A stretch of 64,000 nucleotides of DNA from Duganella sp. CF402 (GCF_900109645.1 NZ_FOBG01000001.1:1426001-1490000); one strand, 5' to 3'. Positions 1 to 39,697 are shown, counted from the stretch's first letter. Notes: generated from the sequence alone by a model not told the origin. Numbers and translations: made by a program.

Positions 1-564
1 AGCCTGTTTGTGGCCGTCCTGCTCCAGCGGCGCGGCCAGCCAGTCCTGCGCATACTGCACCTGCACCACGCGGATGGTGCCCAATGCGCCTTCCCGCACC
101 ATTTGCTGCGCATGGCGCACCAGCGGATAGGCCGAGTAGTTGTGCGTGACGGCGAACAACAGTCCGCGTTCCTCGGCCAGCGCTTGCAGCGCTAGCGCGT
201 CGGCGCTGGTGGTCGTCACCGGCTTATCGCAGATGACGTTGATGCCCGCCTCGAGGAAGGCGCGTGCCACTGGCGAATGCATGTGGTTCGGCGTGACGAT
301 GACCACCGCCTCGATGCCATCTTCGCGCGCCGCTTCGGCTTGCGCCATTTGCTTGTAATCGTTGTAGATGCGTTCCGGGTCCAGGCCCAGCGCGCGGCCC
401 GAGCGCTGCGAGGCGTCGGCGCTGGACGATAGCGCACCAGCCAGCAGTTCATAGCGATCATCAAAGCGCGCCGCGTGGCGGTGCACGGCGCCGATGAAGG
501 CGCCCTCGCCGCCGCCCACCATGCCCAGCCGGATGCGGCCGGGGAAAATCTTCGGTTGTTCCAT
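1..564 (-). CDS. Gfo/Idh/MocA family oxidoreductase, partial (C-terminus beyond window)
   Basis: The first 188 residues are present and the frame is still open at position 1. The N-terminus has a Rossmann dinucleotide-binding loop (RLGMVGGGEGAFIG, about residues 10-23), and the middle carries the family signature around CDKPVTT with the EKP-type lysine as DKP. The start at 564 has a good Shine-Dalgarno (GGAGAG, 4 nt before ATG) and lies 8 nt after the preceding TIM-barrel gene, so it is the last visible gene of the operon running down from 4261. Members of this family oxidise sugar hydroxyls with bound NAD(P); in known C-glycoside pathways (DgpA) and in E. coli YcjS they make or reduce 3-keto glycosides. 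That role here is inferred from the neighbouring deglycosidase pair. The catalytic C-terminal domain cannot be inspected. Confidence 0.85.
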   Translation of the reverse strand, partial: MEQPKIFPGRIRLGMVGGGEGAFIGAVHRHAARFDDRYELLAGALSSSADASQRSGRALGLDPERIYNDYKQMAQAEAAREDGIEAVVIVTPNHMHSPVARAFLEAGINVICDKPVTTTSADALALQALAEERGLLFAVTHNYSAYPLVRHAQQMVREGALGTIRVVQVQYAQDWLAAPLEQDGHKQA

Positions 565-572
565 TTACTCTC

Positions 573-1631
573 CTAAGCGATGCCCAGCATGCGCAGGTTG
601 CGCTGCGGGTCGGCCGCGCTGCCGGCAAAATCGTCGAAGGCTTTATCGGTCACGCGGATGATGTGGTCCCGGATGAAGGATACACCCTCGGCCGCGCCCT
701 GCTCCGGGTGCTTCAGGCAGCACTCCCACTCCAGCACCGCCCAGCCTTTGAAGCCATACTGCGCGAACTTGGAGAAGATGGCCTTGAAGTCGACCTGCCC
801 ATCCCCGAGCGAGCGGAAACGACCGGCGCGGTCCACCCACGGCTGGTAGCCGGAGTACACACCCTGGCGCGCGTCGGGACGGAACTCGGCATCCTTGACG
901 TGCATGACCTTGATGCGGTCGTGATAGCGATCGATGAAGCCGAGGTAGTCCAGCTGCTGCAGCAGGAAGTGCGACGGATCGTAGGCAATCGACAAACGTG
1001 GATGATGGTCGACGCGCTCCAACAGCATTTCAAACGTGGCGCCGTCGAACAGGTCCTCGCCCGGATGCAGCTCGAATGCCAGGTCCACGCCCGCCGCATC
1101 GTAAGCGTCGAGAATCGGCAGCCAGCGGCGCGCCAGTTCATCGAAGGCAGATTCGATGAGGCCCGCAGGACGCTGCGGCCACGGATACACAAACGGCCAC
1201 GCCAGCGAACCGGGGAAGCTGATCGACGCATCCAGCCCGAGGTTGGCGGAAGCCCTGGCAGCCAGCAGCATCTGCTGCACCGCCCACGCCTGCCGCGCCT
1301 TGGGATTGCCGCGCAAGGCGGCCGGCGCGAAACCGTCGAAGGCTTCGTCGTAGGCCGGATGCACGGCCACCAGCTGGCCTTGCAGGTGCGTGCTCAGTTC
1401 CGTGATCTCGACGCCGTTGCGGCGCGCCACACCTTGCAGCTCGTCGCAATAGGTCTTGCTCTCCGCCGCCAGCGCCAGGTCGAACAGGCGCGCATCGTTG
1501 GATGGCACCTGTACACCTTTGTAGCCAAGCTCCCCGGCCCAGCGCGTGATCGCATCCCAGCTGTTGAACGGCGCCGCGTCGCCCGCGAACTGCGCCAGGA
1601 AGATAGCCGGTCCCTTGATGGTGGTCGCCAT
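573..1631 (-). CDS. Sugar phosphate isomerase/epimerase (xylose isomerase-like TIM barrel)
   Basis: A 352-residue TIM-barrel protein. The metal tetrad typical of the family is visible in order: Glu in AFELHPGED, Asp in IAYDPSHF, His in VMHVKDAE and Glu in VLEWECC. The frame extends upstream to 1688, but MATTIKG at 1631 is the natural start, just inside the end of the previous gene's coupling distance. It lies between the DUF6379 gene and the Gfo/Idh/MocA gene in one leftward operon. The family includes YcjR-type 3-keto-glucoside epimerases and hydroxypyruvate isomerases. Here it most likely isomerises or hydrates the 3-keto sugar released by the deglycosidase; this is inference. No signal peptide, so cytoplasmic. 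Confidence 0.85.
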   Translation of the reverse strand: MATTIKGPAIFLAQFAGDAAPFNSWDAITRWAGELGYKGVQVPSNDARLFDLALAAESKTYCDELQGVARRNGVEITELSTHLQGQLVAVHPAYDEAFDGFAPAALRGNPKARQAWAVQQMLLAARASANLGLDASISFPGSLAWPFVYPWPQRPAGLIESAFDELARRWLPILDAYDAAGVDLAFELHPGEDLFDGATFEMLLERVDHHPRLSIAYDPSHFLLQQLDYLGFIDRYHDRIKVMHVKDAEFRPDARQGVYSGYQPWVDRAGRFRSLGDGQVDFKAIFSKFAQYGFKGWAVLEWECCLKHPEQGAAEGVSFIRDHIIRVTDKAFDDFAGSAADPQRNLRMLGIA

Positions 1632-1639
1632 GAGTGTCC

Positions 1640-2017
1640 TCAGCCTGCGATGTTGGCGGTAACGGTGCAGCTGGTGACCGGGCTCCACGGCAGGTAGGAA
1701 ATACGCAGTTGCACCGCCGCCGTCACCGTATGCTCGCCGGCCGGCAGGCCGCCCGGTTGCAGCACCGAGATCTCGGCCACTTCACCGAACTCCCAGCGTT
1801 CATCGTAAGTGGTTTCCACTTCGTCCAGGGTGCGGGTCACGCCGCGCACCGTGAAGCGCACGTTCTCGCGCGGCACCGGAACACCGTCCACCGTCAGCGC
1901 AACGTCTTCCACCGCCGACAGGATCTGGCCGCGATAGTAAGGCAGGCGCGCGCCCAGGCGCCAGCCGCCTTCGATGTTCTCAACGCTGCCCGGATAAATA
2001 ATGTGTTTGTCGTACAT
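1640..2017 (-). CDS. DUF6379 protein, probable C-glycoside deglycosidase beta subunit
   Basis: A 125-residue all-beta small protein with the look of the DUF6379/CGD-beta family: an N-terminal MYDKHIIYPGSVENI segment, a central GVPVPRENVRF stretch and a C-terminal HTVTAAVQLRISYLPW segment. The start at 2017 has a strong AAGGGG ribosome binding site, and the gene begins 13 nt after the TIM-barrel alpha-subunit candidate at 2031-3020. In characterised C-glycoside deglycosidases (DgpB/DgpC, CarB/CarC and the CGD enzymes of Arthrobacter and relatives) a DUF6379 subunit pairs with a sugar-phosphate-isomerase-like subunit to break the C-C bond of 3-oxo-C-glycosides. The identical gene pairing is the main support. 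The recognition is from memory of the family and needs a profile search. Confidence 0.75.
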   Translation of the reverse strand: MYDKHIIYPGSVENIEGGWRLGARLPYYRGQILSAVEDVALTVDGVPVPRENVRFTVRGVTRTLDEVETTYDERWEFGEVAEISVLQPGGLPAGEHTVTAAVQLRISYLPWSPVTSCTVTANIAG

Positions 2018-2030: not shown

Positions 2031-3020
2031 TTAAACTTCGCCCAACAGGCGCTTGAACATCTCTTGCTGGCGGCGTACCTGCTCGGCGCCATCCACTTCG
2101 AAGGCGTCCTCGATGTGGCGCTGGCCTTCGTACTCGCTCGACAGGTGGCCGTCGTAGCCGCCCTCGATCAGCACCGGAATGATTTCCTCGTATGGAATCG
2201 CCGGCTCCTTGCCGCCGTCGTCGATCTCGTAGAACTTGGCGTGGATGTTGAAGATCCACGGCATGAATTCCAGCATGCGGCGCGGATTGCTCCAGATGTT
2301 GTGGCGGATGGTCTCGGCCATTTGCAGGTCGACCGGGTTACCGCCCATCTTGCGCACATCCATCAGCACATAGTCGGCCAGCACGCGCGCCTTGTGCGCT
2401 TCGAGGATGAACTCCACAATCTTCGGCGTGGCGCCATTGCGCAGGAAGCGGTCGCGGAACACCGGCGGGTAGTTTTTGGTGTACATGCCCATGTCCGGCA
2501 CATAGCCCACGTGGTCGGAGCCGGTGGCGCGCGTCAGTTCGGTGTAGCGTAGGATCCACGGATGGTCGAAGTGGAACGGCGAGTGCACCTCGATCCCCAT
2601 GCGCACGTCCAGCTGTTCGGCCAGCGGCACGCAGGCCACCACCACTTCCGGCGGCGTGTTGACGATCACGCGCACATTGCGGCAGCCGATCTTCTTGGCG
2701 AAGTGCAGATCGCGCTTGAGCGACGCCACCATCTCCTCGAAATTCAGTTTGCGGTCCTTGTACAGCTTCACGTCCAGGAACATGTCGTGGCACTGGGCAT
2801 AGGCGCCGTGGCGTTCCAGCGATGCGAACCAGCCGTCGATCTGCGCCTGCGGCACGTTGGGGAAGCCGGTGAACGACTGTTCGCTGACTACTTCGATGCC
2901 CTTGGCGCCAAGGCTGGCGGCATGGGCGATGCAGTCGTCAAGGGTCATCTTGCGCAGGAAGGTCTCGTATTGGTAGCTGTAGAGCGAGACGCCGCGCTTG
3001 ATGCTGTGCTGAGTTTTCAT
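2031..3020 (-). CDS. TIM-barrel protein, probable C-glycoside deglycosidase alpha subunit
   Basis: A 329-residue xylose-isomerase-like barrel. Candidate divalent metal ligands are E144 (GIEVHSP), D176 (YVPDMGMY), H260 (FNIHAKF) and E296 or E298 (SSEYEGQ); H146 is a plausible acid/base. The frame continues to 3278, but that part lies antisense inside the MFS gene; MKTQHS at 3020 follows an AGAGG ribosome binding site. It is immediately followed by the DUF6379 gene, the arrangement known for alpha/beta C-glycoside deglycosidases. The enzyme would split a 3-oxo-glycoside into aglycone and keto-sugar in the cytoplasm. A plain 3-keto sugar isomerase is the alternative, but the adjacent beta-subunit-like gene favours the deglycosidase reading. 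Confidence 0.78.
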   Translation of the reverse strand: MKTQHSIKRGVSLYSYQYETFLRKMTLDDCIAHAASLGAKGIEVVSEQSFTGFPNVPQAQIDGWFASLERHGAYAQCHDMFLDVKLYKDRKLNFEEMVASLKRDLHFAKKIGCRNVRVIVNTPPEVVVACVPLAEQLDVRMGIEVHSPFHFDHPWILRYTELTRATGSDHVGYVPDMGMYTKNYPPVFRDRFLRNGATPKIVEFILEAHKARVLADYVLMDVRKMGGNPVDLQMAETIRHNIWSNPRRMLEFMPWIFNIHAKFYEIDDGGKEPAIPYEEIIPVLIEGGYDGHLSSEYEGQRHIEDAFEVDGAEQVRRQQEMFKRLLGEV

Positions 3021-3043: not shown

Positions 3044-4261
3044 TTAGAGTGCGACGCTGGAAGGCGACGCCGGTGCCCGCAAGCGCAGCACGCAAGCCAG
3101 CAGTGCGCAGACGGCGGCGATCACGCCGAAGGCGACAAATGCGCCCTGCAGGTTGCCGACCGCGCCGCGCATCAAGTTGACCACGGCCGGCGACAGGAAC
3201 TGCGCCACGAAGAAGGAACTGGCCCACCAGCCCATGCCGCGACCACGGTGTTCGAACGAGAATTTGCTTTGTGCCCAAGCGATCAGCGCCGGCACGATCA
3301 GGCCATTGGCCAGCTGCTGTACAAAGGCGAAGGCCAGCGCCACCTTGTAGTCCGGCGCCATGCCGATGCCGCCCAGGCCTATCGCGTAGCCGACGAACAC
3401 CAGGAAGATCTGGGTGCCCGAGCCGTAGCGCGTGGTCAGCTTGAACAGCACCGCGCCGATCGGCACTCCGATGCTGGGAATCGCCATGCTCAAGCCGATC
3501 GATTTCGGATCGCCCACGCCCAGCTCTTTCAGCAGCAGCGAGAAGTTAATCACCTGGACGTAGTAAATGGTCGACAGGATCACGGTCACACCGCACACCA
3601 CCAGCCCCGCAAGATAAGGGAATGGGGTCGACTGCACTGGCGCCACGCCCGCTGCGGCATTGCGCTTGCTGCGGGATTCCGGCTCGAACAGGAAGGCCAG
3701 GCTGGCCACCAGGATCGGAATCGCCACCGCGTACACCAGGAAGGGATACTGCCAGCCCTGCGCCGCCAGGAAGCCCGAGCTGGCGATGGTCACCGTGCCC
3801 AGCACCGAGCCAACCACGCCCTGTATCATCAGCCAGCGGTGGCGTTCCTGCTCTTCGTAGTAGTCGGCCAGCAGAGTGTTCACCACTGTCAGCACGCCGG
3901 CCTCGCCGATGCCGATCACCACCCGGCCGGCCACCACCGCCCAGAAGTTATCGATCACGAACGGCATCAGGCCACCACCGCCATAAAACGCCATCGCCCA
4001 TAACAGCAGGCGGCGACGCCCAAAGCGATCGGCGATCACGCCGGCGGCCGGCGCGAACAAGGCGATGCAGGCGCTGGGCGCGGTAATCAACAGCGGCACC
4101 ATTAATTTGGCGTTGGGCACATCATGGAAGTGCGCCAGCAGCGTGGGCAGGGTCGGCGCCAGCGCGATAATCGCCATCACCGGCAGGAAGCCGGAAAACA
4201 CCAGGATCCAGCCCTGGCGCCAATCAGCCTTCCGGGGCGCCGGAAAATCAGAACTTTGCAT
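3044..4261 (-). CDS. MFS transporter (12 TM), probable glycoside importer
   Basis: A 405-residue major facilitator with about 12 hydrophobic segments and the loop 2-3 signature ADRFGRRRLLL near residue 80. The start at 4261 (MQSSDFP) is chosen because an AAAGGAG site lies 7 nt upstream; an open extension to 4462 would cover the promoter region. It is the first gene of the leftward operon with the deglycosidase pair and is divergent from the LacI gene. It resembles the MFS gene at 9559-10791 along its length (shared LVP-L-IT-PS and GIGEA/VVGLAEA-type segments), so the two are probably paralogues serving two related cassettes. The likely cargo is a glycoside or its sugar; the direction and cargo are inferred. 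Confidence 0.87.
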   Translation of the reverse strand: MQSSDFPAPRKADWRQGWILVFSGFLPVMAIIALAPTLPTLLAHFHDVPNAKLMVPLLITAPSACIALFAPAAGVIADRFGRRRLLLWAMAFYGGGGLMPFVIDNFWAVVAGRVVIGIGEAGVLTVVNTLLADYYEEQERHRWLMIQGVVGSVLGTVTIASSGFLAAQGWQYPFLVYAVAIPILVASLAFLFEPESRSKRNAAAGVAPVQSTPFPYLAGLVVCGVTVILSTIYYVQVINFSLLLKELGVGDPKSIGLSMAIPSIGVPIGAVLFKLTTRYGSGTQIFLVFVGYAIGLGGIGMAPDYKVALAFAFVQQLANGLIVPALIAWAQSKFSFEHRGRGMGWWASSFFVAQFLSPAVVNLMRGAVGNLQGAFVAFGVIAAVCALLACVLRLRAPASPSSVAL

Positions 4262-4335: not shown

Positions 4336-4436
4336 CGGCCTGCGCTCCACCGATAAATGCGCTTGTACAAGGCTTTTTATCGATATGTCGTATTGATATC
4401 TTGGATACCTGAAAAGGGCGGTTTTTACGGTATATT

Positions 4437-4465: not shown

Positions 4466-5491
4466 ATGCCATCATCAGCCATCAAGATCCGAAACAAACC
4501 CGCCGCCACCGCCTCCATTTCGGCAGTGGCCGAGCGCGCGGGCGTGTCCATCGCCACCGTATCGCGGGTACTGAACGGCACCAAGGCGGTCAATGCCGAT
4601 ACCCGCGAGCGGGTCGAAAGCGCGGTCGCCGAACTGGGTTACCGCGCCAACGCGCTGGCCCGTAGCCTGATGCGCGGCGAAACCCGCTTGTTATTAGTAC
4701 TGGTGCCGGACTTCGCCAACCCCTACTTTGCCGAAATCGTCAAAGGCGTGGAGTCGGTCACGCGCGCCAATGGCTATGGGCTGGTGATCGCCGACGCTTC
4801 GCAAACGCTGTCGCGCGACAGCGCGGCGCTCGATTCACTGTACAACCGGCTGGCCGATGGCGTCATCAGCCTGGCGCGCTTCGCCGACCTGAAGCCGCTG
4901 TTGCAGGAGATTCCCGATCTGCCGTGGGTGGCTTGCTCGGAATTCGTCGAAGACAGCGATGTACCAAGCGTCAGCATCGATCATCGCCAGGCCGCCATCG
5001 ATGCGGTGCAGTACCTGCTCAATCGCGGCCACAAACGGATTGCCCTGTTGAGCGCCAGCGAGGACTATCGCTGGGCGCGGCAACGCCACGAGGGCTATGA
5101 ATATGCACTGCAGCGCGCCGGCATCGCGGTCGAACCGCAGCTGGTGCGGGTGGCGCGCGGCACCGATTACATCCACGGCATGGAAGCCGCCGGCACGCTG
5201 CTGGCGATGGAGCATCCGCCGACCGCCGTCTTCGCGGTGGCCGACACCCTGGCCATCGGCGCCATCAAGGCCTTCCGCCGCGTCGGCCGCCGCGTGCCGG
5301 AGGACGTGGCGGTGCTGGGCTTTGACGATATCCCGGTGGCGCAGGTGTTCGAGCCGGCGCTGACCACCATCGCGCAGCCGGTGCGCGAACTTGGCGCGGC
5401 GGCGGCGGAGCTGCTGCTCAAGCGCCTGGCCGGCGGCGCCGCCGAATCGCGCACGCTGGATCATGCACTGATTGTGCGCCAGTCGGCATAA
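4466..5491 (+). CDS. LacI family transcriptional regulator
   Basis: A 341-residue repressor with an N-terminal helix-turn-helix and hinge (about residues 17-70; key segments SISAVAERAGVSIATVSRVLNG and RANALARSLM), followed by a periplasmic-binding-protein-like sensor domain (LLLVLVPDFANPYF through VAVLGFDDIPVAQ). The VSRVLNG and GFDDIP segments are typical. It is divergent from the deglycosidase operon and 16 nt ahead of the LysR gene. Candidate operators lie at 4322-4335 and 4437-4452. The probable ligand is a sugar or keto-sugar from the glycoside pathway. Confidence 0.93.
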   Translation: MPSSAIKIRNKPAATASISAVAERAGVSIATVSRVLNGTKAVNADTRERVESAVAELGYRANALARSLMRGETRLLLVLVPDFANPYFAEIVKGVESVTRANGYGLVIADASQTLSRDSAALDSLYNRLADGVISLARFADLKPLLQEIPDLPWVACSEFVEDSDVPSVSIDHRQAAIDAVQYLLNRGHKRIALLSASEDYRWARQRHEGYEYALQRAGIAVEPQLVRVARGTDYIHGMEAAGTLLAMEHPPTAVFAVADTLAIGAIKAFRRVGRRVPEDVAVLGFDDIPVAQVFEPALTTIAQPVRELGAAAAELLLKRLAGGAAESRTLDHALIVRQSA

Positions 5492-5507: not shown

Positions 5508-6422
5508 ATGCGTTTCAACAAACTCGATTTGAACCTGCTGGTGGCGCTCAATGCGCTGCTGGCCGAGCGCAATATCAGCCGCGCAGCGGAAAAACTTTAC
5601 CTGAGCCAGCCCGCCACCAGCGGCGCGCTCTCCCGCCTGCGCGCCTACTTCAACGACGAGCTGCTGGTGCCCTCGGGCCGTCAACTGCTGCTGACGCCCC
5701 GCGCCAAGGAGTTGGTGGAGCCGGTGCGCGAAGTGCTGATGCGGATCGGCACCACCATCGCCGCCCAGCCGCAGTTCGATCCGGCCGCCGAAACACGCGT
5801 GTTTACGCTGCTGGTGTCGGACTACACCACGGCGGTGCTGATCCCGCCGCTGCTGGCGGCGCTGTATCGCGAAGCGCCCAACCTGCGCATCCGCCTGCGC
5901 GACCAGTCCGACCGCGCCAGCGAGCTGCTGGAACAGGGCGAGGCCGACTTCCTCGTGATTCCGTCGCAGTACACGGCCAAGGACCATCCGTCCGCCGCGC
6001 TGTTTGAAGAGGACTACCTGTGCGTGACCTGGGAGGGCAACACCCGCGTACGCGAAGGCCTGACGTTTGACGACTACCTGGCGTGCGGCCACGTCATCGC
6101 CACCTTTGCCAATCACGGCACATCGTCGCTACCGACATTTGACGGCTGGTTCATGGAGAGCTTCGACGTCAAGCGCCGGGTGGAAGTGACGGCGCCCACC
6201 ATGACCGCCCTGCCCTCGCTGGTGATCGGCACCGACCGCATCGCCACCGTGCATCGCCGCATTGCGCTGCATGCGCTGGAGACCCTGCCGGTCAAAGTGT
6301 GGGAACCGCCGCCGCGCATACCGCGCCTGGTACAGATGCTGCAATGGCATAAGCACCGCAGCAACGATTCAGCCCTGAGCTGGATCCGCGACAAAATCAT
6401 CCAGACCGCCGCCGGCGTCTGA
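5508..6422 (+). CDS. LysR family regulator, NodD/FdeR-like
   Basis: A 304-residue LysR protein with the winged helix at residues 1-62 (NISRAAEKLYLSQPATSGALSRLR) and a two-lobed effector domain. The start at 5508 is chosen because MRFNKLDLNLLVAL aligns exactly with the start of the second LysR in this window (24219); the open frame extends 36 nt further into the LacI gene. NodD, NahR and FdeR-type regulators begin this way and respond to flavonoids or other phenolics, which fits the island; the ligand here is inferred. It is followed 19 nt later by the DHA2 MFS gene, its probable target or operon partner. Confidence 0.9.
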   Translation: MRFNKLDLNLLVALNALLAERNISRAAEKLYLSQPATSGALSRLRAYFNDELLVPSGRQLLLTPRAKELVEPVREVLMRIGTTIAAQPQFDPAAETRVFTLLVSDYTTAVLIPPLLAALYREAPNLRIRLRDQSDRASELLEQGEADFLVIPSQYTAKDHPSAALFEEDYLCVTWEGNTRVREGLTFDDYLACGHVIATFANHGTSSLPTFDGWFMESFDVKRRVEVTAPTMTALPSLVIGTDRIATVHRRIALHALETLPVKVWEPPPRIPRLVQMLQWHKHRSNDSALSWIRDKIIQTAAGV

Positions 6423-11744: not shown

Positions 11745-11753
11745 TTGTTCACC

Positions 11754-22302: not shown

Positions 22303-22391
22303 ATTTGGCCGGATTTTGGAAGTCAACGAAAATCACAGTGCTGGGGTATGGATACTCTGGATACCGGCTATCGGCCGGACAAATAGGACAG

Positions 22392-24259: not shown

Positions 24260-24346
24260 TACGAATGCATGCAATCAATTTTACACATATAAGCGCTGGC
24301 GGCAAACTGCGATCTCCAATTACAAAAAATTTTAATGGAGACGCAA

Positions 24347-32128: not shown

Positions 32129-33076
32129 ATGAACATTATCGGACCAGATGCACTGATTTTCGGCGTAGACGATGTCGCCGCCTGCACCCAATACCTGATC
32201 GACTACGGCCTGAAGCCGGTCGACGTCACCGCATCCGGCGGCCGCTTTGAGGCGCTGGATGGCACCGCCATCGTCATCGCCCACCAGAGCGACGCCGCGC
32301 TGCCAGCGCCGCTGCCGACCAAGACCATGCTGCGCAAGACCGTCTACGGCGTGGCCGATGCCGCCACGCTGGGCGCCATCGCCGAAGAACTGGGCAAGGA
32401 CCGCGAAGTGCGCCGCCTGCCGGACGGCTCGATCGAAGCCCGCGACGACATGGGCTTTGTACTGGGCTTCCAGGTGACGGTACGCCGCGCCATCAGCATC
32501 GCCGGCGAAACCATCAACGCGCCCGGTGCACCGGCGCAGCGCGCGCCCAACGTGGTGGCGGTCAGCGAAAACGCCGTCATCGTGCCGCGCACCCTGTCTC
32601 ACGTGGTCTACTTCGTGCCGGACGGCGCCAAGGCCGAAGCCTTCTACGTCGAACGCCTGGGCTTCCGCTGCACCGACCGATTGGCAGGCGCCGGGCCATT
32701 CCTGCAGCCTGCCGGCACACTGGACCACCACACCCTGTTCCTGATTCAAACGCCGCCATTCATGCAAGGCTGCGAACACTTCACCTTCCACCTCGGCGGC
32801 CCGACGGAACTGATGCAGGCCGGCACCCGCTTCGTCAACAAGGGCTATCAATCGTTCTGGGGACCGGGGCGCCACAAGTTCGGCTCCAACTGGTTCTGGT
32901 ACTTCAACAGCCCGCTGGGCTGCCACGTCGAATACGACGCCGACATGGACCTGCACGACGCCGAATGGACTGCCCGTACCGTGCCGATGAGCGCCGATGC
33001 TTCGCAGCTGTTCCTGTTCCAGTCGCGCGAGAAGTGGGCGCCGGCAGGCGGCCCGCCACCGGGCGCTAAACCGTAA
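32129..33076 (+). CDS. Type I extradiol (VOC fold) ring-cleavage dioxygenase, FdeC-like
   Basis: A 315-residue two-domain vicinal-oxygen-chelate protein. By alignment of spacing with BphC, the iron ligands are H158 (LSHVVYF), H217 (CEHFTFHLG) and E268 (CHVEYD), and H201 (LDHHTLF) matches the catalytic His. All are in the C-terminal module, as in class I extradiol enzymes. The ATG at 32129 has an AAGGAA site; the frame also opens 21 nt earlier inside the hydrolase gene. It probably cleaves the hydroxylated aromatic ring made by the FAD monooxygenase encoded at 34072. Confidence 0.88.
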   Translation: MNIIGPDALIFGVDDVAACTQYLIDYGLKPVDVTASGGRFEALDGTAIVIAHQSDAALPAPLPTKTMLRKTVYGVADAATLGAIAEELGKDREVRRLPDGSIEARDDMGFVLGFQVTVRRAISIAGETINAPGAPAQRAPNVVAVSENAVIVPRTLSHVVYFVPDGAKAEAFYVERLGFRCTDRLAGAGPFLQPAGTLDHHTLFLIQTPPFMQGCEHFTFHLGGPTELMQAGTRFVNKGYQSFWGPGRHKFGSNWFWYFNSPLGCHVEYDADMDLHDAEWTARTVPMSADASQLFLFQSREKWAPAGGPPPGAKP

Positions 33077-33085: not shown

Positions 33086-34045
33086 ATGCCGGCTCCCACC
33101 TATCTGTGCCGCATGGCCGATCTGCCCGACGGCGATTCGCGCGGCTTCGATCCCGAAGGCAGCGGCCAGGATAGCCTGTTCGTGGTGCGCCAAGGCGGCC
33201 GTCTGTTCGGCTACCGCGACCAGTGCCCGCACTATGGCGACACCCCGATGGCGTGGCGCCGGCATGCCTACCTGAACGCGGACGGCAGCCGCATCGTCTG
33301 CGCCGCGCATGGGGCGCTGTTCCAGGTGGAGGACGGCGCGTGCGTTCAAGGTCCCTGCCTCGGCCAGTCGCTGACGCCAGTGCCGGTCACCATCAACGGC
33401 GACGGCGAAGTGCACCTGATGCGCGCCAGCGGCCGTCCGCGCGCGGACGAAGTGGAGCAGCGCACGCGCGACCTGATACAGGTGGCGGCGGAGCTGTTCA
33501 TAGCGCAGGGCTACGCCCACGTCAGCCTGCGCACCATCGCGGCGGAAGCGCGGGTGGCGGCACGCACTATTTACGCCAAGTTCGGCGGCAAGCTTGGCTT
33601 GTTCGAAGCGGTGATCGCCTGTGAACGCGACCGCCTGCTGACCAACCTGGACGAACAAACGCCGGGCAAGCGCGCACTGCCCGACCTGCTGGAAGACTTC
33701 TGCGGCCGCTACCTCGCGCTGGTGAACACGCCGCGCGCCATCGCCATCCAGCGCATGGTGATCGCGGAAGCGGCGCAGAACCCGCAACTGGGCCGGGTGT
33801 TCTACGACGCCGGCCCCGGCGCGCTGCGGGCCCGTCTTACCGGACTGTTCGCGCATCCGCAGTCGCAAGGCGCGTTCCGTACCGGCCTCAGTCCGGAACA
33901 ACTGACCAACTTCCTGCTCTCATGCCTGCTCGGCGACAGCACGCAACGGCTGCTGCGCCACCCGGAGCCGGCGCAGGGCAACCAGTCGCACACCGTACAA
34001 GCCGCACTGGCCGCGTTCTTCGCGGTCGCCGGCAAGACGGCATAA
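33086..34045 (+). CDS. Rieske [2Fe-2S] domain fused to TetR-type regulator
   Basis: One uninterrupted 319-residue protein. Residues 1-112 form a Rieske ferredoxin-like domain with C47-P-H49 and C72-A-A-H75 as cluster ligands (22 residues between H49 and C72, slightly long). Residues 125-170 are a TetR helix-turn-helix (VSLRTIAAEARVAARTIYAKF), followed by the usual helical C-terminal domain. In the related naringenin operon a free-standing Rieske ferredoxin (FdeD) occupies this place. The fusion could make a redox- or oxygen-sensing regulator, or a ferredoxin tethered to DNA. It starts 9 nt after the dioxygenase gene. No in-frame break separates the halves, and the join lies in a short Arg/Ala-rich linker. 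Confidence 0.88.
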   Translation: MPAPTYLCRMADLPDGDSRGFDPEGSGQDSLFVVRQGGRLFGYRDQCPHYGDTPMAWRRHAYLNADGSRIVCAAHGALFQVEDGACVQGPCLGQSLTPVPVTINGDGEVHLMRASGRPRADEVEQRTRDLIQVAAELFIAQGYAHVSLRTIAAEARVAARTIYAKFGGKLGLFEAVIACERDRLLTNLDEQTPGKRALPDLLEDFCGRYLALVNTPRAIAIQRMVIAEAAQNPQLGRVFYDAGPGALRARLTGLFAHPQSQGAFRTGLSPEQLTNFLLSCLLGDSTQRLLRHPEPAQGNQSHTVQAALAAFFAVAGKTA

Positions 34046-34071: not shown

Positions 34072-35202
34072 ATGACCTCACCAGCAAAAAAAATCCTCAT
34101 CATTGGCGGCGGCTTTTCCGGCATGGCGGCAGCCATCCAGCTGCGCAAGCAAGCGCTGGAAGTCGACGTGGTGGAAATCGATCCGGGCTGGCGCTCGTAC
34201 GGCGCCGGCATCAGCCTGGGCGGCGCCACCCTGCGCGCGTTCAAGACGCTGGGCATCCTGCCGCAATTCCTTGAGCGCGGCGCGGCCGACGACGGCGTGG
34301 ATATCTTCCTGCCGCACGGCCCCAAGGTCGCCACCCTGCCGACACCGCGCATCGCCGGTGCGGACGTGCCGGGCGGCGGCGCCATCATGCGCCCGGTGCT
34401 GGCCAAGATCCTGGCCGAAGCCACCGTCGCCAGCGGCGCCAATGTACGGCTGGGCTGCACCTTCACGGCGCTGCGCCAGCATGGCGATGGCGTGGAGGCG
34501 ACCTTCACTGACGGCAGCACCGTCAACTACGACTTGGTGATCGGCGCGGACGGCCTTTACTCCAAGACCCGCGCCGCCATCATGCCGGAAGCGCCGCAGC
34601 CGCAGTACTGCGGCCAGGCGGTATGGCGTGCAGTGCTGCCGCGTAAACCGGGCATGGACCGCGCCAGCATGTGGCTCGGCCCCAAGATCAAGACGGGGCT
34701 CAATCCGGTATCGAAGGACGAGATGTACCTGTTCGTCACCGAAGACCGCGAAGAAAACGTGATGATCGATCCGAAGGACTTCGCGCCCATGCTGTCGGCA
34801 CTGCTGGCGCCGTTCCAGGCGCCGGAGATGCAGCAATGCCGCGAGCAGATCAACGATCATGCGCAAATCGTCTACCGTCCGCTGGAATCGCTGCTGGTGC
34901 CGCAGCCGTGGCATCGCGGCCGCGTGGTGCTGATTGGCGACACCGTGCACGCCACCACGCCGCACCTGGCCTCGGGCGCCTGCATCGGCATCGAGGACGC
35001 GCTGGTACTGGCGGAGGAACTGGAAAAGGCCGACGACGTTGAACAGGCGCTGGCCAGCTTCGGCGCGCGGCGCTGGGAGCGTTGCCGCATGGTGGTGGAA
35101 AACTCGGGCCGCCTCGGCGAGATCGAGATCACCGGCGGCGACAAGGCCGAACACGCGCAGATCATGCGCGAGACGCTGGCCGCGCTGGCCGCACCGATCT
35201 GA
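34072..35202 (+). CDS. FAD-dependent aromatic monooxygenase (FdeE-like)
   Basis: A 376-residue group A flavin hydroxylase with the FAD fingerprint GGGFSG (residues 12-17), the DG motif GADGLYSKTR and the GD motif VVLIGDTVHATTPHLASGA. The start at 34072 has a CGGAGAC site. It would hydroxylate a phenolic ring using NAD(P)H and oxygen, preparing it for the extradiol dioxygenase. In Herbaspirillum, FdeE hydroxylates naringenin at C8; similarity of operon order makes a flavonoid A-ring substrate the leading guess. Confidence 0.9.
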   Translation: MTSPAKKILIIGGGFSGMAAAIQLRKQALEVDVVEIDPGWRSYGAGISLGGATLRAFKTLGILPQFLERGAADDGVDIFLPHGPKVATLPTPRIAGADVPGGGAIMRPVLAKILAEATVASGANVRLGCTFTALRQHGDGVEATFTDGSTVNYDLVIGADGLYSKTRAAIMPEAPQPQYCGQAVWRAVLPRKPGMDRASMWLGPKIKTGLNPVSKDEMYLFVTEDREENVMIDPKDFAPMLSALLAPFQAPEMQQCREQINDHAQIVYRPLESLLVPQPWHRGRVVLIGDTVHATTPHLASGACIGIEDALVLAEELEKADDVEQALASFGARRWERCRMVVENSGRLGEIEITGGDKAEHAQIMRETLAALAAPI

Positions 35203-35217: not shown

Positions 35218-36384
35218 ATGCGCAATCACGATTCCAGTAGCGAGAACTGGCGCGGCCGCACCGCGCTGATGGTGGCCCACTGCGCCGGCATGGTCGACTT
35301 GGTGGCGCTACCGGTGTGGATCGGCGCACTGATCGCGCGCTACCATCTGCAACCGCAGCAGGCCGGCATGCTGCTGACGCTCTTCCTGCTGGGTGCAGTC
35401 GGCGCCAGCCTGTTTTGCGCGCCGCGCTTCCAGCGGCTGCCGACCCGCCTGGTGGCGGTGGGCGGCTTTGCCGGCGCAGCGCTGGCTTTCCTCGGCGTTG
35501 CGGCCAGCACCGGGTATGCGCAGATGGCCGGCCTGCACCTGCTGGCCGGCGTGGCGGCGGGCAGCGCGCTCAGTGTCACGCATGGCACGGCGGGCCTGAG
35601 CATCAATCCGCATCGCATGTTTGCCTTGTGCGGCATGGCGCTGGGCGTATTCGCCATCGGCTTCCTCGGCGCCATGCCTGGCATCGTGGCGGACAACGGC
35701 GGCTCGGCCCTGTTTGTCGCACTGGCCATCGTCATGCTGGTCGCCACAGCCGTCAGTGCCCTGCTGTTCCCGCATCGCACAGTGGTGGTGCAAGCCGACG
35801 AGCGCGGGCCGCGCGGCACGCTGCCGCCGATCAGCAGCGCGGTGTGGTTCGCGGCGTTCGGTATCGGCTGCATGGGCCTCGTACAAGCCATGATGTTCAG
35901 CTTCCTCGAACGCATCGGTGCGGACCGTGGCTACAGCGCCAGCGCCGTCACCGGCGTCCTGATCGCGCTTGGCGTCGTCAACCTGTTCCCGGCGCCGCTG
36001 GCGGCATTGCTGGAAAAGCGCTGGCCTGCCCGCCACGTGGTGCTGGCCGGCCCGGTGGTACAAGCCGCCGTGGCCCTGACCATCGCCCACAGCACCAGCT
36101 ACGCCGGCTATGCCGCCGCCGGCGCCGTATTCGCCGCCGTGATGATCTTCACCCACACCTTCGCCTTCGGCCTGATCGCGCAACTCGATCCCGCCGGCCG
36201 CGCCCTGAGCGCCACACCGGCCATGCTGATGATCGGTGCGGCCATCGGCCCTATCCTCGGCGGCACGCTGGTGCAGCAGGCCGGCTACGGCTCGCTGGGC
36301 GTCGCCGCCGTACTGATCGCCACCATCGCCGTGCTGTGCTTCGCGCGCGCCGGCCATCGCTATACCTTAAGGAGCACCCAATGA
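35218..36384 (+). CDS. MFS transporter
   Basis: A 388-residue protein with about 12 hydrophobic helices and no large loops. The polar N-terminus (MRNHDSSSENWRG) is followed at once by TM1. The loop 2-3 signature is weak (FCAPRFQRLPTRLVAVGG), so the subfamily is unclear. It lies between the monooxygenase and cupin genes and overlaps the cupin start by 4 nt; probably an aromatic acid or aglycone carrier. Confidence 0.85.
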   Translation: MRNHDSSSENWRGRTALMVAHCAGMVDLVALPVWIGALIARYHLQPQQAGMLLTLFLLGAVGASLFCAPRFQRLPTRLVAVGGFAGAALAFLGVAASTGYAQMAGLHLLAGVAAGSALSVTHGTAGLSINPHRMFALCGMALGVFAIGFLGAMPGIVADNGGSALFVALAIVMLVATAVSALLFPHRTVVVQADERGPRGTLPPISSAVWFAAFGIGCMGLVQAMMFSFLERIGADRGYSASAVTGVLIALGVVNLFPAPLAALLEKRWPARHVVLAGPVVQAAVALTIAHSTSYAGYAAAGAVFAAVMIFTHTFAFGLIAQLDPAGRALSATPAMLMIGAAIGPILGGTLVQQAGYGSLGVAAVLIATIAVLCFARAGHRYTLRSTQ

Positions 36385-36962
36385 GTTTCCCTCCCATCCA
36401 CCGCGTCGTCACCGGCCATGATGCCGACGGCAAAGCCATCGTCACCTCCGAAGGCGCGCTGCCGACAGTGATCGAGCTGGCGGCGATTCCCGGCACCGTG
36501 TTCCATGAAGTGTGGAGCACCGCCGCAACGCCGGCTGGCGTCGATAACGGTGCCGATCCAAGCACCGGCCCACTGGTACTGCCGCCACCGAAGCACGGCA
36601 CCCGGCTGCGCTTCGTCGATATCCCGCCTGACACCGAGGAGTACCTGGCGCACGGCGCGGCCCGCATGCAGGACGCCTTCAGCGAAATCGGCGACGCCGC
36701 CGCCTCCACCGTGAAGGCCAACTCGCCGCACCCGCTGATGCACCGTACCGAGTCGATCGACTACGGCATCGTCATCGCGGGCGAGCTGACGCTGGTGCTG
36801 GACGATTCCGAAGTCCAGCTGAAACCCGGCAGCGTAGTGATCCAGCGCGGCACCAACCACGCCTGGGCCAATCGCTCGCAAGCGCCATGCCGCATGCTGT
36901 TCGTGCTGATCGACGGCGCCTACGATCCGGCCATCGCCAGCGCATTGAAGCAGCGCGTATGA
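36381..36962 (+). CDS. Cupin domain protein
   Basis: A 193-residue protein with a C-terminal cupin barrel: ESIDYGIVIAGELTLVLDD and LKPGSVVIQRGTNHAWAN correspond to motifs 1 and 2, with fewer metal ligands than classical cupins. AAGGAG precedes the ATG, and both ends overlap neighbours by 4 nt (MFS upstream, SDR downstream). It may be an isomerase or decarboxylase-type helper on the ring-cleavage product, or a small-ligand sensor. Confidence 0.85.
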   Translation: MSFPPIHRVVTGHDADGKAIVTSEGALPTVIELAAIPGTVFHEVWSTAATPAGVDNGADPSTGPLVLPPPKHGTRLRFVDIPPDTEEYLAHGAARMQDAFSEIGDAAASTVKANSPHPLMHRTESIDYGIVIAGELTLVLDDSEVQLKPGSVVIQRGTNHAWANRSQAPCRMLFVLIDGAYDPAIASALKQRV

Positions 36963-37753
36963 CCGAGCCGCTGTCCAACTGGTCCGACCTGTTCGACTTA
37001 CGCGGCCGCGTGCTGCTGCTGACCGGCGCCACCGGCGGCTTGGGCATGGCGCTGGCGCAGGCAATGGCGGCGCATGGCGCCACGCTGCTGCTGTCCGACC
37101 ACAACGCCGCTCAATGCGAAGCAATGGCGCAGCAGCTACGCACCGACGGCCACCAGGCCAGCGCATTGCCATGCGACCTGTCGCAACACGATCAGGTGCG
37201 GCACCTCGCCGCTGCCGCGATGGAAGTGCATGGCCGTGTCGACGTCCTGGTCTGCAACGCAGGCATACAAGGCCCGGCCGGGCCGCTGGCCGCGGTCGAT
37301 GCGCAGCAATGGGACGCCGTCATGGACGTCAACCTGCACAGCGCCGTCACCCTCACCTCCCTGCTAATCCCCACGATGGCGGAGCGTGGCGGCGGCAGCG
37401 TGATCCTCATGTCGAGCATCGCCGCCCTGCGTGGCAATAAATCCATCGGCTTGTACGGCCTGTCAAAGGCGGCGCTGGCGCAACTGGCGCGCAACCTTGC
37501 AGTTGAATGGGGACCACGCAACGTGCGCGTCAACGCCATCGCGCCCGGCCTGATACGCACACCGCTGGCGGCGGGTCTGCTGGCCGATCATGGCTTCATG
37601 ACGCGGCGCATGGCGCAAACCCCGCTGCGCCGTCCCGGCGAGCCGCACGAAATCGCCGGCGTCGCCGTGATGCTGGCCAGCGCCGCCGGCGCTTTCTTCA
37701 CCGGACAGACGCTGGTCGTCGACGGCGGCACCACCATCAGCGACGGCAACTGA
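36959..37753 (+). CDS. Short-chain dehydrogenase/reductase (SDR)
   Basis: A 264-residue classical SDR. Features are the TGATGGLG cofactor loop (residues 22-29), CNAGIQGP, the catalytic Ser in MSSIAA, and YGLSK with the Tyr/Lys pair; the end VDGGTTISDGN is typical of FabG-like members. The ATG overlaps the cupin stop (ATGA). It probably reduces or oxidises a keto or hydroxy intermediate of the aromatic pathway. Confidence 0.9.
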   Translation: MTEPLSNWSDLFDLRGRVLLLTGATGGLGMALAQAMAAHGATLLLSDHNAAQCEAMAQQLRTDGHQASALPCDLSQHDQVRHLAAAAMEVHGRVDVLVCNAGIQGPAGPLAAVDAQQWDAVMDVNLHSAVTLTSLLIPTMAERGGGSVILMSSIAALRGNKSIGLYGLSKAALAQLARNLAVEWGPRNVRVNAIAPGLIRTPLAAGLLADHGFMTRRMAQTPLRRPGEPHEIAGVAVMLASAAGAFFTGQTLVVDGGTTISDGN

Positions 37754-37775
37754 CAACACCAAACGAAAGCACACC

Positions 37776-38753
37776 ATGAAATTCGCCACCCTCAAAGACC
37801 ATACCATCGACGGCCGCCTGCTGGTCGTCTCACGCGATCTGGCGCGCTGCGTCGATGCTAGCGCCATCGCACCTTCGCTGCTGCATGCCGTTCAGAATTG
37901 GAGCAGCGTCGAAGCCGCACTGCGCCAGTTGTACGACACTCTGAACAACGACGCCAGCGCCGGCCAGCCATTCGACCCGCGCCTGTGCGCCGCACCGCTG
38001 CCGCGCAGCCCCCAGTGGTGCGACGGCTCTGCATTCCTCAACCACGCCAACCTGATGGAACAGGCCTTCAAAACGCCGCCCATCCCGGACCTGGACACGA
38101 TTCCGCTGATGTACCAAGGTGCCAGCGACGACTTCCTCGGCCCGCACGACAGCGTGTCACTACCCAGTGAAGCCGACGGCATCGACTTCGAAGGCGAATT
38201 CGGGGTCATCCTCGATAGAGTCGCCATGAGCAGCACGCCGGATCAAGCTTTGCAGCGGGTGCGCCTGCTGGTACAGCTCAACGACTGGAGTCTGCGCGCG
38301 ATGGGGCCGCGCGAAATGCGCACCGGTTTCGGCTTCCTGCAAGCCAAGCCATCGACCAGCTTCGCGCCGGTCGCCGTCACGCCCGATGAACTGGGCGATG
38401 CGTGGCGCGACGGCCGCGTGCACCTTGAACTGCACGTGGAATGGAACGGCGCCCACTTCGGCCATCCAAACGGCGGACAAATGAGCTTCGGCTTTGGCGA
38501 CTTGATCGCCCACGCAGCGCGTACCCGCAAACTGTCGGCCGGCACCATCATCGGGACGGGCACTGTGTCCAACACCAGCCGCGAAGTAGGATCCGCCTGC
38601 ATCGCCGAACGCCGCGTGATCGAAGTGATCGATCATGGCGAACCACACACTGGATTCATGCGCTTCGGCGACCGCTTGCGCATGCAAGCGCGCGTGCCTG
38701 GCACCGAGGTTGGACCGTTCGGCGTCATCGAGCAGCAGGTAATAAAGGCATGA
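37776..38753 (+). CDS. Fumarylacetoacetate hydrolase family protein
   Basis: A 325-residue FAH-superfamily enzyme. The metal-site segment IDFEGEFGVILDR supplies two acidic ligands, QLNDWSLRAMGPRE contains a third (Asp) and the GTGTVSN segment closes the site. Such enzymes cleave C-C bonds in acylpyruvates or hydrate/decarboxylate meta-cleavage products. It follows the SDR gene by 22 nt and overlaps the DenD-like gene by 4 nt. It likely finishes degradation of the ring-cleavage chain. Confidence 0.9.
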   Translation: MKFATLKDHTIDGRLLVVSRDLARCVDASAIAPSLLHAVQNWSSVEAALRQLYDTLNNDASAGQPFDPRLCAAPLPRSPQWCDGSAFLNHANLMEQAFKTPPIPDLDTIPLMYQGASDDFLGPHDSVSLPSEADGIDFEGEFGVILDRVAMSSTPDQALQRVRLLVQLNDWSLRAMGPREMRTGFGFLQAKPSTSFAPVAVTPDELGDAWRDGRVHLELHVEWNGAHFGHPNGGQMSFGFGDLIAHAARTRKLSAGTIIGTGTVSNTSREVGSACIAERRVIEVIDHGEPHTGFMRFGDRLRMQARVPGTEVGPFGVIEQQVIKA

Positions 38754-39697
38754 GCCACATCCTTATCACCGGAGCCAATGGCTTTGTCGGCCGAGGTCTG
38801 GTCAAGCGCCTGCTGGCACAGGGCGGCCACACGCTTACGCTGATCGACCGCAGCTTCGACGATGTGCTGCCGGAGGGCGCGCCGGCGCCGGCGCAAGTGC
38901 GGCGCATCACAGGCTCCTTCGGCGACGCGGCAGTGCTGGATGCGGCGCTCAAATCGCCAGTCGATATCGTCTTTCACCTGGCCAGCATGCCCGGCGCGCT
39001 GGCCGAGCGCGAGCCGGCGCTGGGCTATCAAGTCAACTTGCAGGCGACGCTAACGCTGGCGCACCGGCTGGCCGCCCGGCCGCGCCCTGTGCGCTTCGTG
39101 TTTGCCAGCTCGGTGGCCGTGTACGGCGCGCTGGGACCGGACCATGTGCACGAAAATCAGCCGGCCCGCCCTGCCCTGAGCTACGGCGCGCACAAGCTGA
39201 TGGCAGAAATCGAATTGGCGGACCTGAGCCGGCGCGGCACGCTGGATGCGGTGAGTTTGCGCCTGCCCGGCATCGTCGCGCGGCCGCCCTCCGAGTCTGG
39301 TCACGGCTCGGCCTTCATGAGCCTCGTAATGCACAAGATCGCCACCGGCCAGCCCTATGTGTGCCCGGTCGGCCCGAAGGCCACCGCGTGGTGGATGTCG
39401 CTGCACTGCTGCATCGACAACCTGCTGCACGCCGCCGCCATGCCGACCGCCGGCGCACCGGCGAGCCGCGTGTGGCAGCTGCCGGTCCTGCACCTGAGCA
39501 TGCGCGAAGTGCTGGACGCGCTGATCTGGCGCTACGGCCCGCAGCGCCGCGAGTTAATCAGCTTCGCACCGGACGAGCGCATCGAAGCCCTGTTCGGCCG
39601 CATGCCGCCGCTGCATACGCCGGCAGCACTAGCCGCGGGCTTCCGCCACGACGAGGATGCCGACCAGTTGATCGTGGCAGCTTTGCAAGCGCAGTGA
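38750..39697 (+). CDS. NAD-dependent epimerase/dehydratase family protein, DenD-like
   Basis: A 315-residue extended SDR with TGANGFVGRG at residues 7-16, the active-site YGAHK (Tyr/Lys) near 145 and LRLPGIVARP, the motif of D-erythronate dehydrogenase (DenD) relatives. It is the last gene of the rightward operon. DenD acts on four-carbon sugar acids; a sugar-acid step would connect sugar and aglycone branches, but the substrate here is not proven. Confidence 0.85.
   Translation: MSHILITGANGFVGRGLVKRLLAQGGHTLTLIDRSFDDVLPEGAPAPAQVRRITGSFGDAAVLDAALKSPVDIVFHLASMPGALAEREPALGYQVNLQATLTLAHRLAARPRPVRFVFASSVAVYGALGPDHVHENQPARPALSYGAHKLMAEIELADLSRRGTLDAVSLRLPGIVARPPSESGHGSAFMSLVMHKIATGQPYVCPVGPKATAWWMSLHCCIDNLLHAAAMPTAGAPASRVWQLPVLHLSMREVLDALIWRYGPQRRELISFAPDERIEALFGRMPPLHTPAALAAGFRHDEDADQLIVAALQAQ

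Follow-up and report, generated by a model that had tools for sequence, protein, structure and literature searches.

A candidate island for flavonoid glucoside catabolism in Duganella sp. CF402, in which predicted C-glycoside deglycosylation genes adjoin an fde-type ring-cleavage operon

Results

The locus and its two halves

The DNA analyzed here is a stretch of 64,000 nucleotides from Duganella sp. CF402 (GCF_900109645.1, NZ_FOBG01000001.1:1426001-1490000; G000:C2:1426001-1490000 in our numbering; genome of 6.24 Mb in 14 contigs), and this whole stretch is referred to as the window. The left half of the locus (1-22.3 kb) carries genes for C-glycoside deglycosylation, and an operon of the fde type for A-ring cleavage makes up its right half (24.3-39.7 kb). 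The gene families, the catalytic residues, the co-inheritance, and the shared promoter sites are established by the data described below, among which the comparative data carry the most weight. It is likely (with a probability of about 0.74) that the locus serves as one catabolic island for the breakdown of plant flavonoid glucosides, including C-glucosides, which would be coordinated by LysR-type regulators and would end in central metabolism. O-glucosides are probably also substrates.

Sugar-removal genes

The C-glycoside unit is encoded on the minus strand and consists of genes for an MFS transporter, the alpha and beta subunits of a C-glycoside deglycosidase (CGD), a hydratase, and a Gfo oxidoreductase, in this order and with gaps of 8-23 bp. 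The genes of this unit and of the predicted sugar dehydrogenase are the following.

3044..4261, minus: MFS transporter (PF07690), whose gene opens the C-glycoside unit; it precedes CGD alpha in 12/12 CGD-positive genomes of the genus sample described below
2031..3020, minus: CGD alpha (PDB 8qvc_A, 426 bits; 7bvr_A, the DgpB partner, 135 bits)
1640..2017, minus: CGD beta, DUF6379 (PF19906, 114.7 bits, cut-off 27.6; PDB 8qvc_B, 79.8 bits; 7bvr_B, DgpB)
573..1631, minus: 2-hydroxy-3-keto-glucal hydratase, HYD (PDB 8ro4, 547 bits over residues 4-351, full-length)
1..564, minus: Gfo/Idh/MocA oxidoreductase, proposed 3-keto-glucose reductase (PF01408; PDB 3v5n, 465 bits); its C-terminal part is outside the window (genome C2:1425407-1426564)
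13466..15160, minus: GMC flavin dehydrogenase, proposed glycoside C3-dehydrogenase, GlycDH-like (PF00732/PF05199; nearest PDB entry fructose dehydrogenase large subunit, 155 bits)
15170..15826, minus: Gluconate_2-dh3 subunit with a Tat-like signal, presumed partner of the GMC protein (PF13618)

The PF19906 beta gene adjoins the gene of the TIM-barrel alpha subunit, and the two proteins match both chains of one solved complex, 8qvc, which presumably belongs to a deglycosylation cluster of Deinococcus aerius. Such a cluster, for the deglycosylation of C-glucosyl flavonoids and xanthonoids, has reportedly been described by Furlanetto et al. (J Mol Biol, 2024). All seven residues of the AgCGD2 type are present in CGD alpha (metal: E144, D176, H260, K262, and E296; catalytic: H146 and E298), as mapped by motif and HMMER alignments to 8qvc and 7bvr and not to AgCGD2 directly; the metal-binding and catalytic residues of AgCGD2 are those given in the available part of PMC8563793. 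Judged by these sequence features, CGD alpha and beta are real members of the C-glycoside deglycosidase family, as a preliminary description of this DNA had proposed, and cleavage of 3''-keto C-glycosides is predicted for them.

The preliminary description had also named a Tat-linked GMC sugar dehydrogenase, and this is borne out by the GMC flavoprotein, which, judged by domain families and signal, is paired with a Tat-signal small subunit in the manner described for GlycDH. Among the PDB and NCBIfam matches, pyranose oxidases cover only the C-terminal part of the GMC protein (at best 48 bits in PDB and 55 bits in NCBIfam). According to the available part of PMC10628242, GlycDH, a GMC enzyme with a Tat-signal partner, oxidizes vitexin, orientin, isovitexin, and puerarin, and a route of oxidation, elimination, hydration, and reduction is proposed there for Agrobacterium tumefaciens and strain PUE, in which the elimination is shown and the hydration is preliminary. 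A candidate gene for every step of this sugar route is present in the genome of CF402.

The pairing of Gfo and hydratase genes in one operon is also found in A. tumefaciens (available part of PMC10628242), and because of this operon analogy the reductase role is favored for Gfo, the direction of the reaction being a candidate assignment. A role of Gfo as a DgpA-like oxidase was set aside, as the DgpA PDB entries score 33-45 bits and the best PDB matches are named merely "Oxidoreductase." The TIM barrel of 573-1631 had been considered as a second deglycosidase, which was rejected given its match with 8ro4.

Two side observations concern sugar genes elsewhere. In the Agrobacterium plasmid region L136, the hydratase gene adjoins a Gfo gene and ABC transporters, and no CGD is annotated there. 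In Ramlibacter albus (L043:14225-15235), a glucokinase gene (PF02685, 337 bits) directly adjoins CGD beta, which fits glucose as the sugar product.

Ring-cleavage operon

The right half of the locus was compared with dioxygenase loci from a scan of GTDB species genomes, of which the best 80 of 433 relatives were used. Its genes, preceded by the two minus-strand genes to its left, are the following.

22422..23213, minus: cyclase-family metal hydrolase (PF04199), in 60/80 FdeC-like loci
23281..24219, minus: LysR-type regulator 2 (LysR2), in the position of FdeR and divergent from the operon (PF00126/PF03466)
24335..25993, plus: DUF1302 protein (PF06980)
26005..27348, plus: DUF1329 protein (PF07044)
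27348..28574, plus: YCF48/BNR-repeat protein (PF14870)
28571..30934, plus: MMPL/RND transporter (PF03176)
30951..32111, plus: alpha/beta hydrolase, proposed C-C hydrolase (PF00326; PDB 2jbw, 2,6-dihydroxypseudooxynicotine hydrolase, 66 bits)
32129..33076, plus: FdeC/IfcB-like extradiol ring-cleavage dioxygenase of the VOC family (PF00903), 70-94% identity in the best 80 loci
33086..34045, plus: Rieske ferredoxin, FdeD-like, fused in frame to a TetR regulator (PF00355 and PF00440/PF14246)
34072..35202, plus: FAD hydroxylase, FdeE-like (PF01494; NF005313, 537 bits)
35218..36384, plus: MFS transporter (PF07690)
36381..36962, plus: cupin (PF07883, 44.5 bits, cut-off 27.2)
36959..37753, plus: SDR dehydrogenase (PF13561)
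37776..38753, plus: fumarylacetoacetate hydrolase-family enzyme, FAH (PF01557)
38750..39697, plus: NAD-dependent epimerase/D-erythronate dehydrogenase-like protein (PF01370; NF043036, 213 bits, below cut-off)

When compared with Herbaspirillum sp. Sphag64 (L061), the FdeC-like dioxygenase, the FdeD Rieske protein, and the FdeE hydroxylase are found together in the window, and the core order hydrolase-FdeC-Rieske-FdeE is common to both. In the available part of PMC8552027, FdeE and the Rieske protein FdeD hydroxylate naringenin at C8, which is followed by A-ring fission. The alpha/beta hydrolase, VOC dioxygenase, FAD hydroxylase, and FAH that the preliminary description had assigned to an aromatic operon are all present, and the island also includes genes that it did not name: the cupin, the SDR, the cyclase-family gene, the luciferase-like monooxygenase, and the FMN reductase. 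The match of the Rieske-TetR protein extends over both parts also in Duganella flavida (L001) and in L006, and in most other loci up to L033 it covers the Rieske part alone; the protein may be a regulator coupled to redox chemistry, or it may be no more than a fusion of two genes.

Extent of the locus

The island had been drawn as confined to 1..39697. This boundary does not hold on the left, where the window edge is artificial and the minus-strand C-glycoside unit extends 4 kb past base 1. In the flanking genome sequence, the same unit continues with the rest of Gfo, a second TonB receptor (TonB2), and a second FdeC-like VOC dioxygenase (VOC2), which is 78% identical to the dioxygenase of the window. 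After VOC2, also outside the window, follow an AraC-type regulator, PobA (599 bits, NF006091), PcaCD (739 bits, NF051487), PcaB, PcaG (105.8 bits, under its 126-bit cut-off), PcaH, and PcaR. The island is wider than first drawn; with the pca genes included, it would reach from about -10.7 kb to 39.7 kb. As a general rule, adjacency to pob/pca genes is weak (PobA in 3/80 and PcaCD in 3/80 loci, plus genome G594). By its dioxygenase, the nearest named relative among the best 80 of 433 is D. flavida (94%), and in genome G591, taken as D. flavida, the genes of the island are ordered and spaced in the same way within the 40 kb examined.

Co-occurrence of the two halves

CGD alpha and beta genes lie at most 10 kb from the dioxygenase gene in 12 of the 80 loci, 11 of them at 40% identity or more (L043 being the weakest), and CGD beta is confirmed by Pfam in all 12 of these genomes. 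A GMC gene of the window type (E 1e-50) is found in 10 of the 12, and in each of these the contig that bears CGD has a copy of it. Hydrolase, dioxygenase, FAD hydroxylase, cyclase, FAH, and CGD genes are contained within about 21 kb in 9/12 loci, in one of which the hydroxylase is on the opposite strand. In L029, L032, and L059, the FAD hydroxylase is not in the locus, yet all 13 genomes (these 12 and that of the window) encode one somewhere. In Massilia phosphatilytica (L038), the whole set is on one strand, in the order MFS-CGDA-CGDB-HYD-Gdh3-GMC-Gfo-hydrolase-dioxygenase-Rieske-hydroxylase-cyclase-FAH. The order differs in Paraburkholderia and Caballeronia (L028, L046, and L070) and in Ideonella (L065).

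A second test considered 74 genomes of the genus, of which 12 have CGD beta and 19 have the dioxygenase (E <=1e-100). The dioxygenase is present in 12/12 CGD-positive and 7/62 CGD-negative genomes, and the luciferase-like gene in 11/12 and 0/62, respectively (Fisher 2e-9 and 3e-12, both uncorrected for kinship). For the GMC gene at 59% identity or more, the counts are 12/12 and 0/62 (Fisher 5e-14, likewise uncorrected), with a cut that was chosen after viewing the list, in which paralogues at 51-54% occur in further genomes, nine of these genomes being CGD-negative. In all 12 CGD-positive genomes, GMC and CGD are 1.7-23.4 kb apart, and in 7/12 the dioxygenase is on the same strand at most 6 kb from CGD. 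A cassette of MFS, CGD alpha/beta, TIMc, MFSb, TIMd, TIMe, GMC, Gdh3, FMN reductase, GH3, and luciferase-like genes is kept in 11/12; LacI, LysR1, DHA2, TIMb, and the first TonB gene are variable, and genome G594 is arranged differently. Three CGD-positive genus genomes appear to be the assemblies L029, L032, and L059, and therefore this test and that of the dioxygenase loci overlap.

In a draw of 175 genomes from the family, the dioxygenase (at least 68% identity) is found in 13 and CGD beta in the genome of the window alone; in a draw of 399 genomes from the order, CGD beta is again found in the genome of the window alone. In the genus sample, CGD was never seen without the dioxygenase. From the family, order, and genus counts it follows that the fde half is often alone and that CGD is rare.

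CGD alpha has matches at E 1e-40 in 13 plasmid records, and the CGD regions of all 13, with flanks of 10-20 kb (one stretch being shorter), were compared with the window by tblastn. A ring-cleavage set, consisting of the hydrolase (55-69%) and FAH together with cyclase, cupin, VOC, or FAD hydroxylase genes, is near CGD in four of them: Deinococcus aetherius, Sphingobium sp. TomTYG65, Croceicoccus marinus E4A9, and Novosphingobium sp. P6W. In D. aetherius, luciferase-like (60%), FMN reductase (68%), and GH3 (48%) genes are within 9 kb upstream of CGD, and a luciferase-like gene is near CGD in 4/13 plasmids, Deinococcus included. The annotated VOC protein of D. aetherius has no detectable similarity to that of the window at E 1e-6, and those of TomTYG65, E4A9, and P6W are only 32-34% similar to it. 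A dioxygenase of the window type (E 1e-60) occurs in 24 plasmid records, none of which is among the 13 with CGD alpha. As the gene orders differ and the parts are partly unrelated, these data suggest that the set has been assembled more than once.

Promoter sites and regulators

The pattern GTAT-N11-ATAC has the following three sites, given without a strand.

4390..4408: site in the promoter of the C-glycoside unit
22346..22364: site in the promoter of the monooxygenase/GH3 unit
24241..24259: palindrome between LysR2 and the fde operon

Three sites in the window compare with 0.04 expected, and none of 100 shuffles reached three. Among distinct 250-bp upstream regions, the motif is found in 6/17 for MFSa, 5/10 for the luciferase-like gene, and 11/35 for LysR2. 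When these are pooled, it occurs in 22/62 regions (19/57 without the genome of the window), the reversed pattern occurs in 0/62, and 300 dinucleotide shuffles of the 62 regions gave a mean of 0.09 and a maximum of 1. The combined count for regions upstream of TonB, TonB2, VOC, cyclase, FMN reductase, TIMe, GMC, and CGD alpha is 0/225, many of these starts being internal to operons; upstream of LysR1 the motif is present in 1/20 and upstream of the hydrolase in 3/76.

The two regulators that the preliminary description had labeled NodD/FdeR-like are confirmed as members of the LysR type (5508-6422 and 23281-24219). In NCBIfam, both are nearest to BsrA/LeuO, below the cut-off. They are 47% identical, so both could read GTAT-N11-ATAC, as predicted from this similarity. 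By its position, LysR2 is a candidate counterpart of FdeR, being divergent from the fde operon with the conserved palindrome between them. A LysR-type site shared by three promoters predicts co-induction of the three units.

A NodD-like ATC-N9-GAT box was dropped as a shared site, its 31 matches being scattered over 104 kb. Two more GTAT-N11-ATAC sites are near a third dioxygenase locus of this genome, one being intergenic and away from flavonoid genes and the other inside an ORF. By eye, a second shared element resembling AATTAGAATTCGGATTCTGATT is seen in the window (22252-22421 and 17962-18101), upstream of the luciferase-like and TonB/GMC units. In some relatives it also precedes the MFS-CGD unit, and it is possibly the TetR site.

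Transporters, TIM-barrel proteins, and the flavin monooxygenase

The genes between the C-glycoside unit and the ring-cleavage half, other than those of the GMC pair, are as follows.

4466..5491, plus: LacI-family regulator, divergent from the C-glycoside unit (PF00356/PF13377)
5508..6422, plus: LysR-type regulator 1, LysR1 (PF00126/PF03466)
6442..7920, plus: MFS transporter, DHA2-like as labeled by eye (PF07690)
7904..8809, minus: TIM-barrel sugar isomerase-like protein (PF01261; hydroxypyruvate/2-oxo-tetronate isomerase-like, below cut-off)
8793..9557, minus: TIM-barrel hydroxypyruvate isomerase-like protein (PF01261; TIGR03234, 129.5 bits, below cut-off)
9559..10791, minus: MFS transporter (PF07690)
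10788..11744, minus: TIM-barrel IolE-like protein (PF01261; TIGR04379, 85.5 bits, below cut-off; PDB 3cny)
11754..12704, minus: TIM-barrel IolE-like protein (PF01261)
12787..13461, minus: TetR-family regulator (PF00440)
15841..17961, minus: TonB-dependent receptor (PF00593/PF07715)
18102..18707, minus: NADPH-dependent FMN reductase (PF03358)
18727..21147, minus: GH3 beta-glucosidase-like protein (PF00933/PF01915/PA14; NF052330, 511 bits, under its 1300-bit cut-off)
21157..22251, minus: luciferase-like flavin monooxygenase (PF00296)

The preliminary description had counted six TIM-barrel enzymes, which agrees with six PF01261 proteins when CGD alpha is included, and its GH3 glucosidase corresponds to 18727-21147. 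The 7904..8809 protein has a possible twin-arginine signal by eye, which the signal-pattern scan did not flag. The two IolE-like proteins (10788-12704) are 30% identical to each other and are kept with GMC in 11/12 CGD-positive genus genomes. In the 11754..12704 protein, E170, D198, H224, and E285 are invariant across 28 aligned proteins (the protein of the window and 27 picked from 120 listed); for this pair, the sequence searches and the alignment yielded conserved residues of the metal type and no function.

The third flavonoid-type locus of the genome (G000:C2:3761001-3791000; L096 and L097) has GH3 (68%), dioxygenase (78%), hydrolase (85%), FMN reductase (85%), and luciferase-like (86%) genes, together with FAH, cyclase, LysR, and TonB genes; no FAD hydroxylase is present within the 30 kb examined. 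In this locus and in Paraburkholderia metrosideri, the luciferase-like gene accompanies the fde core, with no FdeE-like gene in the examined stretch.

Discussion

Proposed route and its weighing

In the proposed route, glycosides would enter via the TonB receptors and MFS permeases; the outer-membrane uptake of the preliminary description is represented by the receptor at 15841-17961. The GMC/Gluconate_2-dh3 pair would then oxidize C3 of the sugar, CGD alpha/beta would take off the 3-keto sugar by beta-elimination, the hydratase would convert the released 2-hydroxy-3-keto-glucal into 3-keto-glucose, and Gfo would reduce this to glucose, while simple O-glucosides may be hydrolyzed by GH3. The aglycone would be hydroxylated by the FdeE-like enzyme and its Rieske partner and its A-ring cut by the FdeC-like dioxygenase, the remaining fragments being processed by the hydrolase, cyclase, cupin, SDR, and FAH, and the B-ring fragment may pass to the pobA and pca genes just beyond the window. 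Binding of the LysR regulators to GTAT-N11-ATAC in the promoters of the three units would switch them on jointly.

Several observations weigh against this interpretation. In the 5/12 CGD-positive genus genomes that have no dioxygenase within 6 kb of CGD, the nearest one is 34, 62, or 146 kb or 1.3 Mb away, or on another contig; a spacing of 30-41 kb, as in the window, occurs in only 4/12, the genome of the window having a copy within 6 kb as well; and in 4/12 the 40 kb examined around CGD contain neither hydratase nor Gfo. The fde half is without CGD in 7/19 dioxygenase-positive genus genomes and in 12/13 of the family draw, and 9/13 CGD-alpha plasmids are without the ring-cleavage set in the stretch examined by tblastn. 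The hydratase is found in 310 plasmid records and CGD alpha in 13, so that the hydratase marks the use of 3-keto sugars generally. The whole genome has 18 GTAT-N11-ATAC sites, the three of the window included, and 14 of the reversed pattern, which is no genome-wide enrichment, and 40/62 of the promoters have no motif; moreover, all motif figures are post hoc, because the motif was spotted by visual inspection of promoters in the window and in its relatives, which cannot be counted as independent. The substrates, the aglycone, the order of the steps, and the regulation are predictions.

It had been stated beforehand that independent occurrence of the halves in most relatives would speak against a joint locus. 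This is partly so, as the fde half occurs without CGD at the counts given above, and CGD has the dioxygenase in 12/12 genus genomes. Because of the counts of fde alone and the distances between CGD and dioxygenase in the genus, the halves are separable modules, in which CGD seems to depend on fde and not the reverse. The proposal of a single locus joining deglycosylation and aglycone cleavage is supported by the profile and synteny tests, with co-occurrence in 12/12 genus genomes and 9/12 compact loci.

It is conceivable, although unlikely, that flavonoid O-glucosides are the true substrates, served by GH3 and the 3-keto route, and that C-glycoside cleavage is incidental. GH3 is indeed part of the conserved cassette (11/12) and is near CGD in several plasmids, and in the available parts of PMC10628242 and PMC12724307, respectively, a gut CGD enzyme also eliminates 3-keto O-glucosides and PurA oxidizes some O-glycosides. 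O-glycosides do not, however, require a two-subunit CGD, and the gut CGD acts on them less well than the unrelated O-glycoside eliminase does (available part of PMC10628242); moreover, the solved relatives of the CGD of the window include gut C-glycoside enzymes. A somewhat more doubtful alternative is that the C-glycosides are those of other polyphenols (xanthones, anthraquinones, or chromones) and that the adjoining fde operon separately serves flavonoid aglycones, as the separation of the halves in some genomes would allow; this is difficult to reconcile with the FdeC-like dioxygenase in 12/12 CGD-positive genus genomes, within 6 kb and on the same strand in 7/12. That a general 3-keto-sugar island and an unrelated fde operon are neighbors by chance is very improbable: the right half is frequently alone, but the genus association, the recurrent joint loci in several gene orders, and the shared promoter sites argue for a connection, and the genus and plasmid tests speak for an adjacency beyond chance.

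Within the preferred reading of a flavonoid glucoside island, a further proposal concerns the flavin monooxygenase. The luciferase-like gene in 11/12 CGD-positive and 0/62 CGD-negative genomes, its presence near CGD in 4/13 plasmids, and its arrangement in the third locus and in P. metrosideri point to a cross-phylum "C-glycosyl flavonoid catabolon," in which CGD would be tied to a two-component monooxygenase (luciferase-like protein and FMN reductase) acting as an alternative flavonoid hydroxylase or on C-glycosyl aglycones poorly handled by FdeE. This proposal is tentative, and its odds are put at a little under even.

Comparison with known systems

The locus resembles the fde locus of Herbaspirillum seropedicae SmR1 in its FdeC-like dioxygenase, Rieske partner, FdeE-like hydroxylase, and divergent LysR, the order being judged on Herbaspirillum sp. 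L061 and not on SmR1. Whereas the SmR1 locus is described, in the text available, for the aglycone only, that of the window adds the deglycosylation genes, the DUF1302/DUF1329/BNR/MMPL genes, and the Rieske-TetR fusion. An IfcB-like dioxygenase, a cupin, and an alpha/beta hydrolase are shared with the ifc cluster for isoflavone catabolism of Variovorax sp. V35 (available part of PMC11069340). The FAD hydroxylase of the Variovorax loci L045 and L062 is, however, only 34-35% identical to that of the window, compared with at least 45% in 72/80 loci, and is taken as putatively IfcA-like by analogy with the printed IfcA-FdeE identity of 36%.

The CGD alpha/beta pair and its residues are common to the window and to Dgp (strain PUE), Dfg, CarABC, and PurABC, the accounts of which deal, in the parts available, with sugar removal; unlike in Dgp, CarA, and PurA, the oxidation in the window is predicted to be carried out by GMC with Gluconate_2-dh3 and not by the DgpA or CarA/PurA oxidases. 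With the GlycDH-OGE-HYD-Gfo operon of A. tumefaciens (available part of PMC10628242), the window shares GMC with its Tat subunit, the hydratase, and the Gfo reductase, and it differs by having CGD alpha/beta in the place of the eliminase and an attached aglycone pathway. Several phyla contain homologues of the puerarin genes (available part of PMC12724307). No paper joining CGD genes with flavonoid ring cleavage was found in a search that was weak on subscription journals. The modules for sugar removal and for ring cleavage are each already known.

Sugar removal and aglycone destruction have so far been studied separately and in different organisms. Grasses are rich in C-glycosyl flavonoids, which withstand ordinary glycosidases. 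A joined locus, if true, would let one bacterium use both the sugar and the aglycone as carbon. Plant flavones are said to enrich Oxalobacteraceae on maize roots (Yu et al., 2021), and the joined locus would offer a genetic hypothesis for this enrichment. It also yields the predictions that one LysR site operates across three units and that a flavin monooxygenase is tied to C-glycoside cleavage.

Other features of the window

To the right of the island, a phytase and TonB receptor pair (42002-46242) seems to be unrelated to it; a tRNA-Ala called by ARAGORN (43492-43579) is on the opposite strand inside this TonB receptor gene and is probably a false call. Toward the end of the window (59117-63835), a flavoprotein of the tryptophan-halogenase family (PF04820, 604 bits) adjoins a large TonB receptor.

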